From: Microlunatus soli
GTDB taxonomy: Bacteria > Actinomycetota > Actinomycetes > Propionibacteriales > Propionibacteriaceae
NCBI RefSeq assembly: GCF_900105385.1
Contig: NZ_LT629772.1
Span: 6,076,001-6,140,000, forward strand
DNA: 64,000 bases
Direction: 5' to 3'
The notes under the pieces were generated by a model that saw only the letters and a list, made by a program, of their open reading frames with translations, ran no database searches and had not been told where the DNA came from. The position numbers and the translations under genes were made by a program. Positions 28,818 through 34,861 of this stretch are shown here, one piece after another (the stretch's first letter is position 1; each line of letters starts with the position of its first letter).

Positions 28818-29478
28818 TCACTCAAGCTGGGAGCGAGCCTGGCCAGCGACGATCTCATCAGAGTCGCCGGCGAGCTTCTTGACGAGATCCAGGCGTTCTG
28901 GGTGCGAGGTGAGGATTTCCCATCGGACCTCGGCGGACCGGTCGTTTGCCAGTCGGGTGAGAGTGGTGGCGCTGAGCCGGCGGGTCGCGACTGTTGCGGC
29001 TCGCACCGGGGCTAAGGGGTCCTTGGCGAGTTTCTCCAGCTCGACCAGCGGAAGGTGCCCGTTCAGTGCCGCGGATCCTCGGACCATCGGGTGTGGATCG
29101 TGCGTCAACGCGATCAGGAGCTCGACGTCCGAACAGGTGTCGGCCAGGTGTTCGCGCACTTCGTGCGCAGGATCCTGCAGAAGTGACCAACGAGTTGGAT
29201 CGTCGAGATCGTCGCGTGTCGCAGCTTGGGCCCGGGTGTCGGGTCTCGATGACTGTAAAGCGACCACGGCCGCGTCCGGATTTGGACTTTCGGCGACGGC
29301 AAAGCGGACGAGGAAGTTCGTCCTCGGCGAGGGTCTTGAGCAGGTCGATCGGTGTGGATGGGTTTCCCGCGACTGCTGTGCGGACCTTCGGGGCGGCGTC
29401 CGAGGCCATCTGGCGCAGGACTGGCACCGGGGTACTTGGATTGCTGGCCGTTGCTGCGCGATCGTTGATCGTGGGCAC
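28818..29478 (-). pseudogene. Frameshifted HEAT/leucine-rich-repeat-variant protein gene
   Basis: Two adjoining minus-strand frames encode one repeat protein. The first runs from a GTG at 29478 (VPTINDRAATASNPSTPVPV) through VRTAVAGNPSTPIDLLKTLAEDE. The second resumes at about 29318 with NFLVRFAVAESPNPDAAVVA and continues to 28818 in about 25-residue units such as DPHPMVRGSAALNGHLPLVEL. The break lies at 29300-29320, where a 1-2 nt loss explains the shift. Intact relatives are helical scaffold proteins of about 220 residues. It is either a pseudogene, a sequencing error or, less likely, recoding. Confidence 0.6.
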
Positions 29479-29652
29479 AACGGAAGTGTGGCAGTGAGCT
29501 GGGCTCCTAGTGTGCCGATCTGGGGATCGGCGCCGCGAAGTCACCCGATCCAGCATCCGTGATCATCGATCGATCGGGTAGAGCTCGCTGCCGCCTGGTC
29601 GGGGATCCCGTGCGTACATTTGACCATCGCCTCTGGCGGTCGACAGAGTTGA

Positions 29653-31716
29653 TCAAGCTGGAGGCTGCTTCGCCCGGCCGGCCGCGTACTCCCGTCGGTT
29701 GGCCCAGCTTAAGTCGTGCTTGTCGACCTCGATCTTCGTTGATTGATACCAGGGATCGGGAGCGGGTGGAACCAGGGCGTTGAAGGTCTCTTGGTCGAAG
29801 TCACTCAGCTCGTATTGGCTCCCGACCCCGTAGAGGATCCGAATCGGGATCACCCGGGCCGCGACATCCGCGATTCCGAACGCGCCCGATGCGAGGCCAG
29901 CGGCGACCGCGGTAGCCAGCGGGGCGGCTTGGGCGGTGCTCAGCACGAAGTGGATGATCGTTCCCGGCTGGGTGTTCTCGGGAGCGGAGTCTTGAGCTTC
30001 GAGATGGACGACTATCTCCTTGGTGGCCTGAGCGCTCAACTCTGCGATGACTTGGTCGAGGCAGGCAGGACGGGGTCCTTCATCGAGGTCGGCACGGTAG
30101 ATAACCTCGATCCTCGTCGCCAAGTCGGCGGTGGCGGTGAGAGCGTCGAGCAGTGCGTCAGCCGGCGCCATGTCGGTCAGATGCGTTACGACTTGGCTAG
30201 CCCAAGCGACTACCCGCTCGCGCGGGCTCATGAAGAAGCTCGGCTTGTCGTGCACGTCGTCGAGGACTGCGACCAGCAGCTTCACGAGCGCGAGGCGGAG
30301 CGCGTCGCCGGCGTCGTCCTTGGGTAGACTCTCTGCGAATCGCCGACTCTTGTCGACGACGAGGACGACGCGGTCCGGGTTCGCCTGGCTGAGTAGCGCT
30401 GTGAGCGCCGCTGGCTGTCCACGCCCGACCTCGTCTGTCGCCTTCGCCACCTCGAGGTCGGAGACATCGTGGGACGGGATCCCCATTGCGAAGTACCGGT
30501 CGAAGTACCGGGCGTCGCTGATGCGACGGTCTGAAGAGGCGTAACTCACGCCGCGAGAACGCAGCTTTGGGAACAGGTCAGTTAGTAGCGTTCGGGCGTC
30601 AGCCCGTGAGCGAGTTGGCACCGTCTCGAGCAGAGGTTCGATGTCGAACGGCTCGTATTCAATGCCGCTTGTGCTGTGTTTGAGTTTGTCAGTGTGCCCG
30701 GAAATCAGCTGATCGCGCCATCGCGGAAGTTGCTGGTACAGGGTCGGGAACGCTGTGCGAAGCAGAGTGAGGACGATGACGTCCTCATCATCGATTTCCT
30801 CTGGCTGGACTAGGGGTATGTGGTGTCGCAGCTGCGCGAGATAGCGGTCGATGGCACGGGGAGTACCGAGCACAGACCGGTACACCTCGACGAGATGCCC
30901 AAGTCGCTCGCCGTTCGGTTGCGGTCGTCCCGCGTCGGCAAGCGTCGCGGAAAGACCTGCGTCGAGCCGGGCCAGCAGCTGTGTGGACAGCAACGGGGGC
31001 ACCACGAGCGGGTACTGGACGATCTTTTCCATGAAGCGGGCCGCGGCACCGTCGTCCTCGCCGACAAGGTTCGCCTCGGAGAGAGCCTGGAACAATGTTC
31101 CCTCGTCGTAGGCGAGCAGGTAGTGCACCCCAGGGAACCGACCAAGAAGCCGGACGACTTTGAGAAGCGCGAGCAGCTCCTCGGTCTGCAATCGATCGAT
31201 GTCGTCGGCGATCATCAGGACCGGCGTGCCCAGCTTTTTCAACTCGTCTGCGGCTGTGTTGAACGCCTTGTCCCACGGAGTCTGCTTCTTCAGTGCTGCT
31301 CCAAGGGAGCTCGCCGCTGATGCTGCTGCGCCGCCGACCCACGGGATGGCGTTCGCCGCTGGCGCCGCGACCTGCACGAGCGTGCCGAGTGCATTACGAA
31401 TCTGCTTGGACCGGCCCGGGAGCGATTCGCTCAACGATGCGTAGAAGTCGCTGAGCAGCCCGGTAACGTCGCCGGTCGCCCATGGTGTGAACCGGGCGAC
31501 CTGCCAACGTGGGCAAGTTGCGTCGAGTTCCTCGGAGATCATGCCCAGCATTGAGCTCTTCCCGCTACCCCAGGGGCCGGTGAGCCCGAAGACGATCGAG
31601 TCCTCCCAAGAGTGGCTGTTCGCAATCAAACTGGCGGCGTGGACGGCGTAGTCAGTACGACCGAGCTCGTCCTCGCTCTTGGCCGTGATCGGCGCGTCAG
31701 TCCAGGGCATGGGCAT
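29653..31716 (-). CDS. KAP-family P-loop NTPase
   Basis: The 687-residue protein has Walker A GPWGSGKSS at residues 47-55. A hydrophobic, Ala/Gly-rich stretch at about 111-142 is followed by Walker B VLMIADDID at 166-174 and LLKVVRLLGRFPGVHYLLAY. An insertion of membrane-seeking helices between Walker A and B is the hallmark of KAP NTPases, which are often membrane-associated and occur in plasmid, phage-exclusion and defence contexts. The C-terminal 400 residues are helical and not recognised. It is divergent, across 274 bp, from the peptide/ATP-grasp operon, and its base composition is less GC-rich than the backbone genes. A functional link to that operon is inferred from position only. Confidence 0.8.
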   Translation of the reverse strand: MPMPWTDAPITAKSEDELGRTDYAVHAASLIANSHSWEDSIVFGLTGPWGSGKSSMLGMISEELDATCPRWQVARFTPWATGDVTGLLSDFYASLSESLPGRSKQIRNALGTLVQVAAPAANAIPWVGGAAASAASSLGAALKKQTPWDKAFNTAADELKKLGTPVLMIADDIDRLQTEELLALLKVVRLLGRFPGVHYLLAYDEGTLFQALSEANLVGEDDGAAARFMEKIVQYPLVVPPLLSTQLLARLDAGLSATLADAGRPQPNGERLGHLVEVYRSVLGTPRAIDRYLAQLRHHIPLVQPEEIDDEDVIVLTLLRTAFPTLYQQLPRWRDQLISGHTDKLKHSTSGIEYEPFDIEPLLETVPTRSRADARTLLTDLFPKLRSRGVSYASSDRRISDARYFDRYFAMGIPSHDVSDLEVAKATDEVGRGQPAALTALLSQANPDRVVLVVDKSRRFAESLPKDDAGDALRLALVKLLVAVLDDVHDKPSFFMSPRERVVAWASQVVTHLTDMAPADALLDALTATADLATRIEVIYRADLDEGPRPACLDQVIAELSAQATKEIVVHLEAQDSAPENTQPGTIIHFVLSTAQAAPLATAVAAGLASGAFGIADVAARVIPIRILYGVGSQYELSDFDQETFNALVPPAPDPWYQSTKIEVDKHDLSWANRREYAAGRAKQPPA

Positions 31717-31897
31717 GTTGCAAGTTTCGACTCAAAAGCTCGGCCATGGTCGGTGGCACGCCGGGTTGGGCAGCGCTCGGTTGGGGGTGCGAGTACTTGG
31801 TCGACGATCGTGACCGGACAGGTAACCATGCGCTGAGAGTCCTGGAGGTTGCCAGGAGACCTCGCCCGCTCGAACAATCGATTAGCCGTCGGAAAAG

Positions 31898-31924
31898 CTG
31901 TCCCGAAATGCGCATACTGTCCCG
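31898..31924. repeat. Direct repeat CTGTCCCG upstream of the peptide operon
   Basis: CTGTCCCG occurs at 31898-31905 and 31917-31924, a 19-bp period, in the 274-bp region between the divergent KAP and peptide genes. CATACT at 31914-31919 could be a weak -10 element. The repeat is a candidate regulator site but rests on only two short copies. Confidence 0.35.
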
Positions 31925-31990
31925 CGACGCACTCGAATCGAGCAGACTGATGCTGCGGGTTGCTCGCAAGGCAAAGGAGTGTGTAACACA

Positions 31991-32179
31991 ATGAGAAAAC
32001 CGTCGCTCTACGACCTGGCCATCCCAGCTAAGCAAGTGTCGCCCGATCCGCGACCAGATCCTTCTCCCGACCCGCGTCCCGATCCACGGCCCAACCCAGG
32101 CACCGTGTACACGGCCGCTGTGGAGACGATCGACAACGATCGAGCCACGTTGCTTCTTTCCGCTGGCGTCGTGCGCTGA
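31991..32179 (+). CDS. Putative graspetide-type precursor peptide with Asp-Pro repeat
   Basis: The ATG at 31991 opens a 62-residue peptide, with AAAGGAG 11 nt upstream. Residues 1-16 (MRKPSLYDLAIPAKQV) could be a recognition leader. Residues 17-37 are a proline-rich block in which PDP recurs four times, ending in PNPG. Residues 38-62 contain Thr38, Thr41, Glu45, Thr46, Asp48, Asp50 and Thr53, a mix of hydroxyl and carboxyl side chains that an ATP-grasp ligase could join as esters. The stop is 2 nt from the start of the ATP-grasp gene, so the two are coupled. I do not recognise the peptide from any known graspetide group. The precursor role is inferred from size and position. Confidence 0.6.
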   Translation: MRKPSLYDLAIPAKQVSPDPRPDPSPDPRPDPRPNPGTVYTAAVETIDNDRATLLLSAGVVR

Positions 32180-32181
32180 CG

Positions 32182-33075
32182 GTGCCACTCATCATCGGAG
32201 ATCCCGCCGATCCACATGTGGCAGCGGTTGTGGATGCGATGCACTCCAAACCGCTAATGGTCGACGCGGCAAGCATCCTCGAGTCGGCCGTAACAATTAG
32301 CGCAAATTATGTTGACGTCGCCGGTATCGAGCTGCAGGCGACGCACGCATGGCTGCGCAGGCTCGCACCTGCCGTGTGGGCGAGCGCAATCGATGCACCA
32401 GGTGCGGACCAAGCCTCCCATGCCGCCGCGATAGCTGCCCTTGCCGCTATCATTCGCGACCCTCGGTTCACGTGGTTGACAGCGCTAGACCAGTTCGGCA
32501 AATCTGAGAACAAGGCCGTGCAATATCGCCAAGCATCTGCTGCTGGCGTTCCGGTACCGAAATGGCTCATCACGACCGATCCGAACTCAGTCCCCAGCAC
32601 TGGCACCTGGGTAGTGAAGCCACTAGGCCCCGGTTCGTTTATCGACGGCACGGGCCTTGGGCGCATCGTCCCGACCAGACTTGTCGATATCACCGACCCG
32701 AACGTTATTGCTGCCGCTCCGTTCATCATTCAGCAGCTCATCCCGGCGACCATTCACGCTCGTGTCGTCACGGTCGGTGACAATGTGTGGTCCGCAACCC
32801 TCCCTGCGGAGAATCTCCCACTCGACTGGAGGCTCTCGTCGGAGAGCCATCGCGCATTCACCCGAGTGCCTACCCCAGACCACGTACACGACCTGGCTCG
32901 CGAGGCGGCCCGCAGCAATGGTGTCGGTTTCACCGCACAAGATTGGATCCGGGACACCTCCGGGAGTTGGTGGTTCGTCGACCTCAACCCCGCAGGACAG
33001 TGGTTGTTTCTACCGCCTGAGGTCGCTGAGCCGGTTACTGCGGCGATCGCAGCCTTCCTGGACAACCACCGATGA
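32182..33075 (+). CDS. ATP-grasp peptide maturase, MvdD/graspetide-ligase-like
   Basis: The 297-residue protein has an ATP-grasp fold with candidate ATP-binding lysines Lys111 and Lys146 (TWVVKPLGPG), RVVTVGDNVW at about 194-203, and Asp254. NPAGQW at 269-274 is the NPxGQW signature of the ligases that install side-chain ester or amide links in microviridin-type and other graspetides. The N-terminal third is divergent. The GTG at 32182 is 2 nt after the peptide stop. The final TGA overlaps the ATG of the membrane-protein gene. The known family role is ATP-dependent activation of Asp/Glu carboxylates in a leader-bearing peptide; the substrate here is presumably the 62-residue peptide upstream. 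Confidence 0.75.
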   Translation: MPLIIGDPADPHVAAVVDAMHSKPLMVDAASILESAVTISANYVDVAGIELQATHAWLRRLAPAVWASAIDAPGADQASHAAAIAALAAIIRDPRFTWLTALDQFGKSENKAVQYRQASAAGVPVPKWLITTDPNSVPSTGTWVVKPLGPGSFIDGTGLGRIVPTRLVDITDPNVIAAAPFIIQQLIPATIHARVVTVGDNVWSATLPAENLPLDWRLSSESHRAFTRVPTPDHVHDLAREAARSNGVGFTAQDWIRDTSGSWWFVDLNPAGQWLFLPPEVAEPVTAAIAAFLDNHR

Positions 33076-33683
33076 AGGGGCTCTGCCACCGTTTCCGCCA
33101 AGTTACTCTGGGGCTGCGCAAGTCCGAGGCATGGCTATTCCTCGCCTACGTCACCATCACGTTCCGACCTGGCGCGGCACCGCCGGCACATCCGCAACAC
33201 GAGCAGGGGCAACCCGATCCGCTTCCAGACGGGTGGGGGGACGGCTACCAGCTCTACATCGATGAAGCACGGCTCGACTCCGCTAATCAACTTGCCGAGA
33301 AGCGGGACATCCGAGCGCGGGCACAGGTCATGCTCACAACCGCCATCGTCTTGGGAGGTGCGATCATCGCCTCCTATGGCAGCAAGTGCGATTTGCACTG
33401 GCTCGGCCGGCTCGTTTACGGCCTCGCGGGACTCTGCACGACCCTGGCTGGGCTGGCCGCAGGCGGCATGATTTCGGCGCGCTCAGACATCGGCACGGTG
33501 AATCTCTCTGCACTGCCGGACAACGACGCCGACGAACTCCGCCGTGCGATCGCTAACGGGTACGCGAGTACACGCAGGGTCGGTGCTGAAACCATCGCCA
33601 CCCTCGTAACGGCGCTTCGCGACTGCGTACTCGTCCTGGTTATCGGTGCTGGCCTTCTCGCGGTCGCCCACCTCTGGCTCTAA
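33072..33683 (+). CDS. Small membrane protein coupled to the ATP-grasp gene
   Basis: This 203-residue protein has a Pro-rich hydrophilic segment (about 33-56), a charged amphipathic helix at about 58-85 (YQLYIDEARLDSANQLAEKR), and hydrophobic helices at about 86-103, 112-134 and 182-202. The charged helix before paired membrane helices recalls SLATT/2TM-type membrane effectors but is not diagnostic. Its ATG overlaps the stop of the ATP-grasp gene (ATGA), so it is made in proportion to the maturase. Plausible jobs are export, immunity or an effector for the modified peptide; none can be chosen from sequence alone. Confidence 0.65.
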   Translation: MKGLCHRFRQVTLGLRKSEAWLFLAYVTITFRPGAAPPAHPQHEQGQPDPLPDGWGDGYQLYIDEARLDSANQLAEKRDIRARAQVMLTTAIVLGGAIIASYGSKCDLHWLGRLVYGLAGLCTTLAGLAAGGMISARSDIGTVNLSALPDNDADELRRAIANGYASTRRVGAETIATLVTALRDCVLVLVIGAGLLAVAHLWL

Positions 33684-33874: not shown

Positions 33875-34861
33875 GTGACCGCCCATGACGAGCTGACGCC
33901 GACGCCCTTCGTCCCCTGGGATGAATACTGGGCTGTTCGGCACGACGAGGAGCTTTGGACCCCGTGGATTCGGTGGGCGCTGGAGCTGGCCGAAGTCGCC
34001 GCTGATGATGTCGCAATCCTGAAGCCGTCGCAGTATCCGACGGCGCGCTGCGGGGACGTGATCGTCACGATCTATCCCGACGCGTCGTTCGTGTTTGACC
34101 TGGAACGCGAGGCGCACACCTTGCTTTCTGCCAGTGATCTGCCGATCCCCAGCCTCGTTGCTGCGGGCACCTTTCCAACGCAGCCAAAGGAGCCCATCTG
34201 GCAATGGTTGATTGAGTCCGTGGCGGCCGGGATTCCGTGGAATCGTGCGCGGGCCGAGCTGGCTCCCGCCAAGGCTTCCCGTGCTGCGGAGGCCGTCGGC
34301 TCTGCGTTGCGCAGTCTCCACCGGACCCCACACGCGGCTGGCCGGATATTGAACCTTGATTGGGCGAGCTTCGACGAGTTGATCGAGGACGAGGTCAAGG
34401 AGCTTGGTCAGAACGACGGTCGATTGGCCCTGTTTCCTGATCGCTTTCTGCCGGGTCTGCTTGAGCTTGCTCGGTCGACGTACGGGACGATCGACACCGG
34501 CACAGTCTCGACGATCCTGCATGGGGATGTGCATGGTGACAATGTCTTCATCGAGCCTGCCACCGGGGAGCTGACGTCGATCATCGATCTGAACGAGATG
34601 AGAGTGGGCGATCCCTGGTACGACCTGGCGGATGCCGCCTTTCGTCTTCTGCGAGGTCGACCCGGCCTGATCTGCCAGCTGCTCAGGGGCTACGGAGCGG
34701 ATCTGCTTAAGCCCGAGCCGCTCGCGCTGCGGCTACTCGGATGGGGCCTCGTACACGACTTCGACGGGTTGACAGCAACGATCAAGGAGCGGGGTATTCC
34801 AGATGGGATCGATGATGTTCAGCAGCTCGCCGGCCACCTCAGCGGTCTGACTGCACCCTGA
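33875..34861 (+). CDS. APH-type phosphotransferase
   Basis: The 328-residue protein shows the aminoglycoside-phosphotransferase/choline-kinase fold. The catalytic loop is ILHGDVHGDNVFIE at about 212-225, and the metal-binding segment is IIDLNEMRVGDPWYDLADA. The GTG at 33875 follows TAGCTT (33862-33867) by 7 nt and has no ribosome-binding site, so it is probably leaderless. Members phosphorylate aminoglycosides, macrolides or cellular alcohols. The N-terminal part gives no resistance-specific signature, so calling it a resistance gene would be unsupported. Confidence 0.85.
   Translation: MTAHDELTPTPFVPWDEYWAVRHDEELWTPWIRWALELAEVAADDVAILKPSQYPTARCGDVIVTIYPDASFVFDLEREAHTLLSASDLPIPSLVAAGTFPTQPKEPIWQWLIESVAAGIPWNRARAELAPAKASRAAEAVGSALRSLHRTPHAAGRILNLDWASFDELIEDEVKELGQNDGRLALFPDRFLPGLLELARSTYGTIDTGTVSTILHGDVHGDNVFIEPATGELTSIIDLNEMRVGDPWYDLADAAFRLLRGRPGLICQLLRGYGADLLKPEPLALRLLGWGLVHDFDGLTATIKERGIPDGIDDVQQLAGHLSGLTAP

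Follow-up and report, generated by a model that had tools for sequence, protein, structure and literature searches.

The window analysed here, a stretch of 64,000 nucleotides, covers positions 6076001-6140000 of the single-contig, 6.73-Mb genome of Microlunatus soli. It carries one tight operon of three genes, encoding a short peptide, an ATP-grasp protein and a membrane protein, at the positions given for them in an earlier note on this DNA (Table 1). The spacing described there is found as well: two nucleotides (CG) separate the stop codon of the peptide gene from the GTG start of the ATP-grasp gene at 32182, and an ATGA at 33072-33075 is common to the end of the ATP-grasp gene and the start of the membrane-protein gene. 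The NPAGQW stretch read at residues 269-274 of the ATP-grasp protein is likewise present. Upstream, the intergenic region shared with a divergent gene contains a single weak sigma-70-like match, near chance level.

Table 1. Features of the operon and of its divergent neighbour (positions counted from the first nucleotide of the window).
Feature	Position	Strand	Basis or remark
KAP P-loop NTPase (PifA-like), divergent neighbour	29653..31716	-	PF07693 3.2e-51; PADLOC PifA 4.8e-58
Divergent intergenic region between KAP and precursor genes, 274 bp	31717..31990	.	Presumed to hold both promoters
Shine-Dalgarno-like AAAGGAG	31973..31979	+	11 nt 5' of the precursor ATG; read from sequence
Graspetide precursor peptide, 62 aa	31991..32179	+	ATG 31991, TGA 32179; two database homologues; shared leader and core
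Ser-Leu-Tyr leader motif (residues 5-7), probably recognised by the ligase	32003..32011	+	[STD][LF][YF] pattern; role inferred
Core T38-x2-T41-x3-E45-T46-x-D48-x-D50, predicted ester-link site	32102..32140	+	Conserved Thr and Glu/Asp
ATP-grasp protein, predicted graspetide synthetase, 297 aa	32182..33075	+	NCBIfam profiles, PDB ligases, Foldseek, tree
D-L-N-P-A-G-Q-W, metal/ATP-site motif	32980..33003	+	Asp where sampled non-clade relatives have Glu
203-aa membrane protein predicted to have three TM helices, with long helical extensions	33072..33683	+	Conserved partner

GC content around the operon is low (0.634 between 29 and 39 kb versus 0.671 for the window), and the lowest-GC intervals (0.62-0.64) fall at 29-39 kb, though 50-53 kb also drops to 0.64. 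To its left is an ORF read as a DNA ligase, and to its right are an IS3-type transposase and a serine-recombinase ORF, all three labelled by reading. A phosphotransferase of the APH family (33875-34861, + strand; PF01636 2.5e-20) is encoded 191 bp after the operon, and was absent from the other operon loci compared, copies of the window locus aside. Downstream of the KAP gene, at 28818-29480 on the - strand, is a protein with a repeated HEAT-like pattern (by reading), which was not found at 22 other KAP loci, each covered with about 1.5 kb of flank.

No Pfam model matches the ATP-grasp protein. In a profile search against NCBIfam it matches TIGR04187 (1.1e-31), MvdC (2.1e-19) and MvdD (5.1e-11), with scores far below the curated cut-offs (110 versus 350 bits, 69.8 versus 425 and 42.3 versus 475, respectively), and the same three models match all 36 aligned homologues (alignment A1) at E <= 1e-3. 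A sequence search against solved structures returned graspetide ligases, plus one unrelated marginal match. With an AlphaFold2 model (pLDDT 92) as the Foldseek query, rows 1-32 were all graspetide ligases, led by the prunipeptin synthetase PruB (9bou), which is thus the closest solved structure by fold at 22-23% identity and which differs in the motif, reading E-C-N-Q-S-G-Q-F in the alignment.

A tree of 100 ATP-grasp proteins, in which the rows outside the clade had been thinned from 113 to 71, placed 29 proteins in one group with a support of 100/100 and a stem of 0.86 changes per site. It was rooted at the midpoint, since a RimK outgroup sought in four genomes gave nothing above the cut-off. 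Clade loci sampled for the motif read D[LV]NP[AG]GQW, non-clade loci that have the motif begin it with E, and six loci are motif-less; the D, N, P, G, Q and W are invariant in alignments A1 and A5. By profile, fold and phylogeny, the ATP-grasp protein is therefore a graspetide synthetase belonging to a separate clade, which agrees with the graspetide-type operon proposed in the earlier note and with its expectation that the protein would not fall in a non-RiPP clade. All four clade-member labels examined in named genomes (Pimelobacter, Aeromicrobium, Kribbella and Streptomyces) read 'hypothetical protein'.

The clade is rare, with a patchy distribution. Clade-level E-values were reached by 6 of 391 genomes in the order, 6 of 294 in one family, 4 of 394 in the class and 2 of 396 in the phylum, the genome of the window being included in the order, class and phylum counts. 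Its loci with DNA examined fall into 12 actinobacterial lineages, namely the window, Nocardioides Root140/cremeus (L014, L024), Nocardioides Iso805N (L015), a Solirubrobacteraceae MAG (L016, three precursors), Asanoa (L017, with the precursor downstream), Pimelobacter simplex (L018), Nocardioides URHA0020 (L019), Microbacterium (L020, L021), G360 (L153), Streptomyces (L163, on a plasmid, and L175), G997 (L176) and G1087 (L177). A precursor lies beside the ligase in all 12, with one to three per locus and tandem genes common, so that no homologous locus lacking the peptide, a second outcome that would have told against the earlier note, was met among them; this count covers the genomes with DNA examined, most of the 109 ligase homologues being metagenome proteins outside it. 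At L177 (649-17446), the precursor and ligase genes sit within an extended array of genes for large GTPase-like proteins and repeat proteins, reminiscent, by reading, of NTPase conflict systems.

The window peptide has two protein-database homologues (85 and 82% identity), and these two and two ATP-grasp homologues have longest contigs of identical size, 5417 and 2647 (metagenomic). Across 24 listed precursors from the 12 lineages, the two database homologues included, the leader pattern [STD][LF][YF] is present in every sequence, as is E-T-x-D in the core. Around the latter, T at -4 is kept in 21 of the 24 (absent from L153a, L176b and L177), D at +5 in 20 (absent from L016b, L020a, L176a and L176b), and position -7 is T or S in 18. 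Because most of these precursors had been found by motif, the pattern was also run over 206 loci (1.31 Mb, six frames), comprising 33 clade loci, copies included, and 173 others, that is, other ATP-grasp loci, control regions and neighbours. The combined leader and core pattern was found in 29 of the 33 clade loci and in none of the 173 others; the remaining four, all copies of the window locus, have a spacing of 40, outside the range that the pattern allows. The strict core TxxTxxxExxDxD occurs at 19 clade loci, which represent six of the 12 lineages (window, L014, L015, L016, L017 and L018), and at no non-clade locus, with L019, L020, L153, L163, L176 and L177 deviating from it; the short pattern TxxxETxD picks up 31 clade loci plus two others (L146 and L201). 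Independently of the motif search, tblastn with the window peptide recovers the peptides of L014, L015, L017 and L018.

Ser/Thr/Lys donors ahead of Asp/Glu acceptors, the arrangement by which graspetide cores are recognised, are conserved in this core, and cross-linking of the peptide through its side chains is very likely, judging from its sequence. The PFFARFL leader and TxKxPSD core of microviridins are absent from the window peptide as read. No GRASP_targ model appears among its NCBIfam matches up to E 1, in line with what had been noted earlier.

Downstream of the ligase, the membrane protein belongs to one homologous family in 10 of the 12 lineages (blastp, tblastn), and in blastp among nine lineages each copy matches another down to at least 1e-8. 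A profile search yielded 66 homologues, 18 of which have a longest contig of exactly the same size as that of one of the 109 ATP-grasp homologues, compared with a mean of 0.5 for jittered sizes. From these comparisons, the membrane protein is a conserved and linked partner of the ligase. Its AlphaFold2 model (pLDDT 82) is a helical bundle with helices at residues 58-104, 110-135 and 153-202; together with the mean hydropathy, which exceeds 1.6 twice along the window protein and three times along the L016 homologue, these three long helices speak for the three transmembrane helices claimed at the outset. The protein has no significant family match in the searches made, and its model no informative structural match. 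In both Streptomyces loci an EcsC-family protein takes the membrane-partner position (Pfam match in L163; the L175 copy is 86% identical), and no membrane partner was seen at L177. The EcsC genes (L163:8982-9530 and L175:8191-8739) are close to genes for a Crp-type regulator and an AAA/LuxR protein. At L014 (5933-6590) the membrane-partner gene is split into two pieces that lie in different frames, with transposase-like ORFs (by reading) after it, while the two precursors and the ligase of that locus remain open.

The earlier note had gone on to suggest a new graspetide class, and here it overstated the case: the strict spacing TxxTxxxExxDxD is the core spacing of thuringinin (group 3), and thuringinin loci are reported to have a membrane protein as well. 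As six of the 12 lineages share that spacing, the chemistry is probably not new. The note also passed over the conservation of the membrane partner, the frequent tandem precursors and the mobile or defence-rich islands in which many loci are found. Thuringinins (groups 3-6 of Lee et al.; cluster 13 of Makarova et al. 2022) are described in PMC8939145 as encoded at loci mostly without known transporters but with an uncharacterised membrane protein, which its authors propose as a transporter; a membrane protein encoded alongside is a trait shared with the present clade, although the thuringinin ligase and membrane protein are compared here by description only. Thuringinin is trivalent with repeated core units according to PMC12291112, whereas the present clade has one core per precursor and tandem genes at many loci. 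It also differs in being an actinobacterial clade with a ligase of its own, as far as the description of thuringinin allows the comparison. Bacillus thuringinin-like ligases were sought among plasmids, and no Bacillus was present among the names in 60 of the 76 records.

The TIGR04187/TgmB ligases that act with GRASP_targ precursors belong to the same phylum, Actinomycetota, and provide the best-scoring model for the window ligase; unlike them, this ligase scores below the cut-off and falls in a separate long-stem clade, and its precursor has no GRASP_targ match. No protein O-methyltransferase was recognised among 28 neighbour proteins scanned with Pfam. The rosaritide system (MirABC), whose graspetide depends on a partner protein, likewise pairs a graspetide synthetase with a conserved partner gene, but MirC is a PPIase/SurA-like protein (PMC13097080), and the partner here is a membrane protein without significant family match. 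The same paper reports a RODEO survey with 43 groups, several of which include extra proteins, either DUFs or without Pfam/TIGRFAM matches, and the clade could already be among those 43 groups.

Two loci outside the clade are of interest for their upstream frames. In Micropruina (L022:1417-2730), a 437-aa protein with repeats such as LKKILDDP is encoded directly upstream of the ATP-grasp gene and is perhaps a long multi-core graspetide precursor. At L107 (1-870; G166), a long branch that is the sister of the clade in the tree, an upstream frame with RGE-x-D-type repeats and many Thr residues is perhaps another.

Many clade loci lie in a mobile, defence-rich context. Integrases scored above the Pfam cut-off at L018 and L021, a TraI-like helicase is encoded near the L020 operon and a RecD/primase-like protein near that of L014. 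L015 has as neighbours a type I methylase and, narrowly missing the Pfam cut-off, an integrase-like protein; at L019, a PDC-M05 pair, an ApeA-like protein and a phage-integrase SAM domain; at L017, a PDC-S39/DUF4209 protein; at L175, a TIR protein; and at L176, close to the operon, a PDC-S45 match (PADLOC, trypsin-like). L153 and L177, with one protein tested singly in each, gave no defence gene. In Microbacterium (L021:4974-7115), a protein with a 5-hmdU DNA kinase domain and a protein with a thymidylate-synthase domain are encoded beside the integrase and the operon.

For a control, ORFs lying up to 7.5 kb from the ligase (98 proteins from 10 genomes, leaving out the operon itself) and ORFs from 10 arbitrary regions in these genomes (116 proteins) were searched against PADLOC. 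With a cut-off of E <= 1e-12, the operon loci matched 77 models and the controls 13; the control models (mad3, DEDDh, ThsA and others) look generic, and the best control match reached 3.4e-37. Tightening the cut-off to E <= 1e-40 left, near the operon, three PifA proteins, one type I methylase and one type I specificity subunit, along with PDC-M05A and PDC-S14, and nothing in the controls. A defence gene at this level is therefore present at at least five of the 10 loci against none of the 10 control regions (one-sided p 0.016, for a threshold chosen afterwards), the five sure loci being the window, L155, L156, L157 and L154, with the specificity subunit and PDC-S14 not counted among them.

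The explanation that we prefer, with a probability of about 0.6 for the whole, is that the operon makes a graspetide, needs a dedicated membrane partner, and is a mobile cargo of defence islands that serves conflict. The N-terminal Ser-Leu-Tyr region of the precursor would dock on the ATP-grasp enzyme, which would use ATP to phosphorylate Glu45, Asp48 and Asp50. Thr38 and Thr41, perhaps also Thr46, would then attack the activated Glu/Asp side chains to give two or three omega-ester rings, with a mass change of -36 to -54 Da, a number expected from the chemistry of the family and from the conserved core residues. The co-translated membrane protein would be a dedicated partner for the peptide at the membrane, whether as an immunity factor, an exporter or a gated effector. 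Carried by defence-rich islands, the operon would serve conflict with phages, rival elements or competitors rather than housekeeping, and the neighbouring KAP NTPase would be a separate defence gene of the same island. The part of this explanation that assigns the operon a role in biological conflict is plausible. No report of a graspetide role in phage or element conflict was found among the literature search results examined, and a term search of a paper on conflict systems (PMC7159879) gave no match for ATP-grasp, EcsC or RiPP.

The strongest competitor, to which we would grant somewhat less than an even chance, is that the product is an ordinary secreted graspetide, a protease inhibitor or an antibacterial, which the membrane protein exports or against which it immunises, the island setting reflecting mobile carriage only. 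Characterised graspetides are indeed described as protease inhibitors in PMC8939145, the transporter proposed for thuringinin loci points the same way, integrases or TraI-like helicases accompany several loci, and the trypsin-like PDC-S45 protein near the L176 operon might provide proteolysis there. Yet the Pfam scan of 28 neighbour proteins turned up no peptidase-containing transporter, a double-glycine motif occurs in 2 of the 24 precursors, and the co-residence with defence genes exceeds that in one control set. Rather more speculative, and in our opinion unlikely, is a RiPP-based intracellular conflict system, in which an ester-locked peptide without a dedicated exporter would control the membrane protein, three-TM or, in Streptomyces, EcsC, as an effector within defence islands.

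It is improbable that the KAP NTPase, the membrane protein and the peptide form one dedicated defence system with KAP as its sensor. Four of the 10 operon-bearing genomes have one KAP gene each, and in three of these (G000, G279 and G608) it adjoins the operon, with an orientation that differs (divergent twice, convergent once); among the loci, KAP neighbours the operon in the window, L016 and L018. At the Streptomyces plasmid locus L163, a NACHT-like protein lies convergent to the operon (26.0 bits versus a Pfam cut-off of 26.7; no PADLOC match). Against such a system, the KAP gene is absent from the six other operon-bearing genomes, only 2 of the 21 genomes with this KAP type among 372 of the order (E <= 1e-20) have it beside the operon, and KAP homologues of 83% and 77% identity occur in genomes in which no clade ligase was found. 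Given these last two observations, KAP is probably an independent defence gene sharing the island. The stricter idea of KAP as an obligate partner of the operon was rejected, as most KAP homologues were found without it. Finally, a RimK-like ligase that extends a protein tail with amino acids, the peptide serving as carrier or regulator, is very improbable: the RimK-family model matches the window protein weakly (8e-4) along with 6 of the 36 members of alignment A1, and RimK structures appear from Foldseek row 33, but the graspetide models match all 36 and the Thr donors and Glu/Asp acceptors of the precursor are retained.

Returning to the preferred reading of a graspetide operon carried by defence islands, if the predicted links form, these loci would constitute an actinobacterial graspetide clade with a linked membrane partner and often tandem precursors, whose member in the window scores below the NCBI cut-offs. 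If the island setting is functional, graspetides would gain a role in conflict with phages or other elements, and if the intracellular version were true, a graspetide would be a component of anti-phage or abortive-infection immunity and not a secreted metabolite. The operon is small and its role directly testable.
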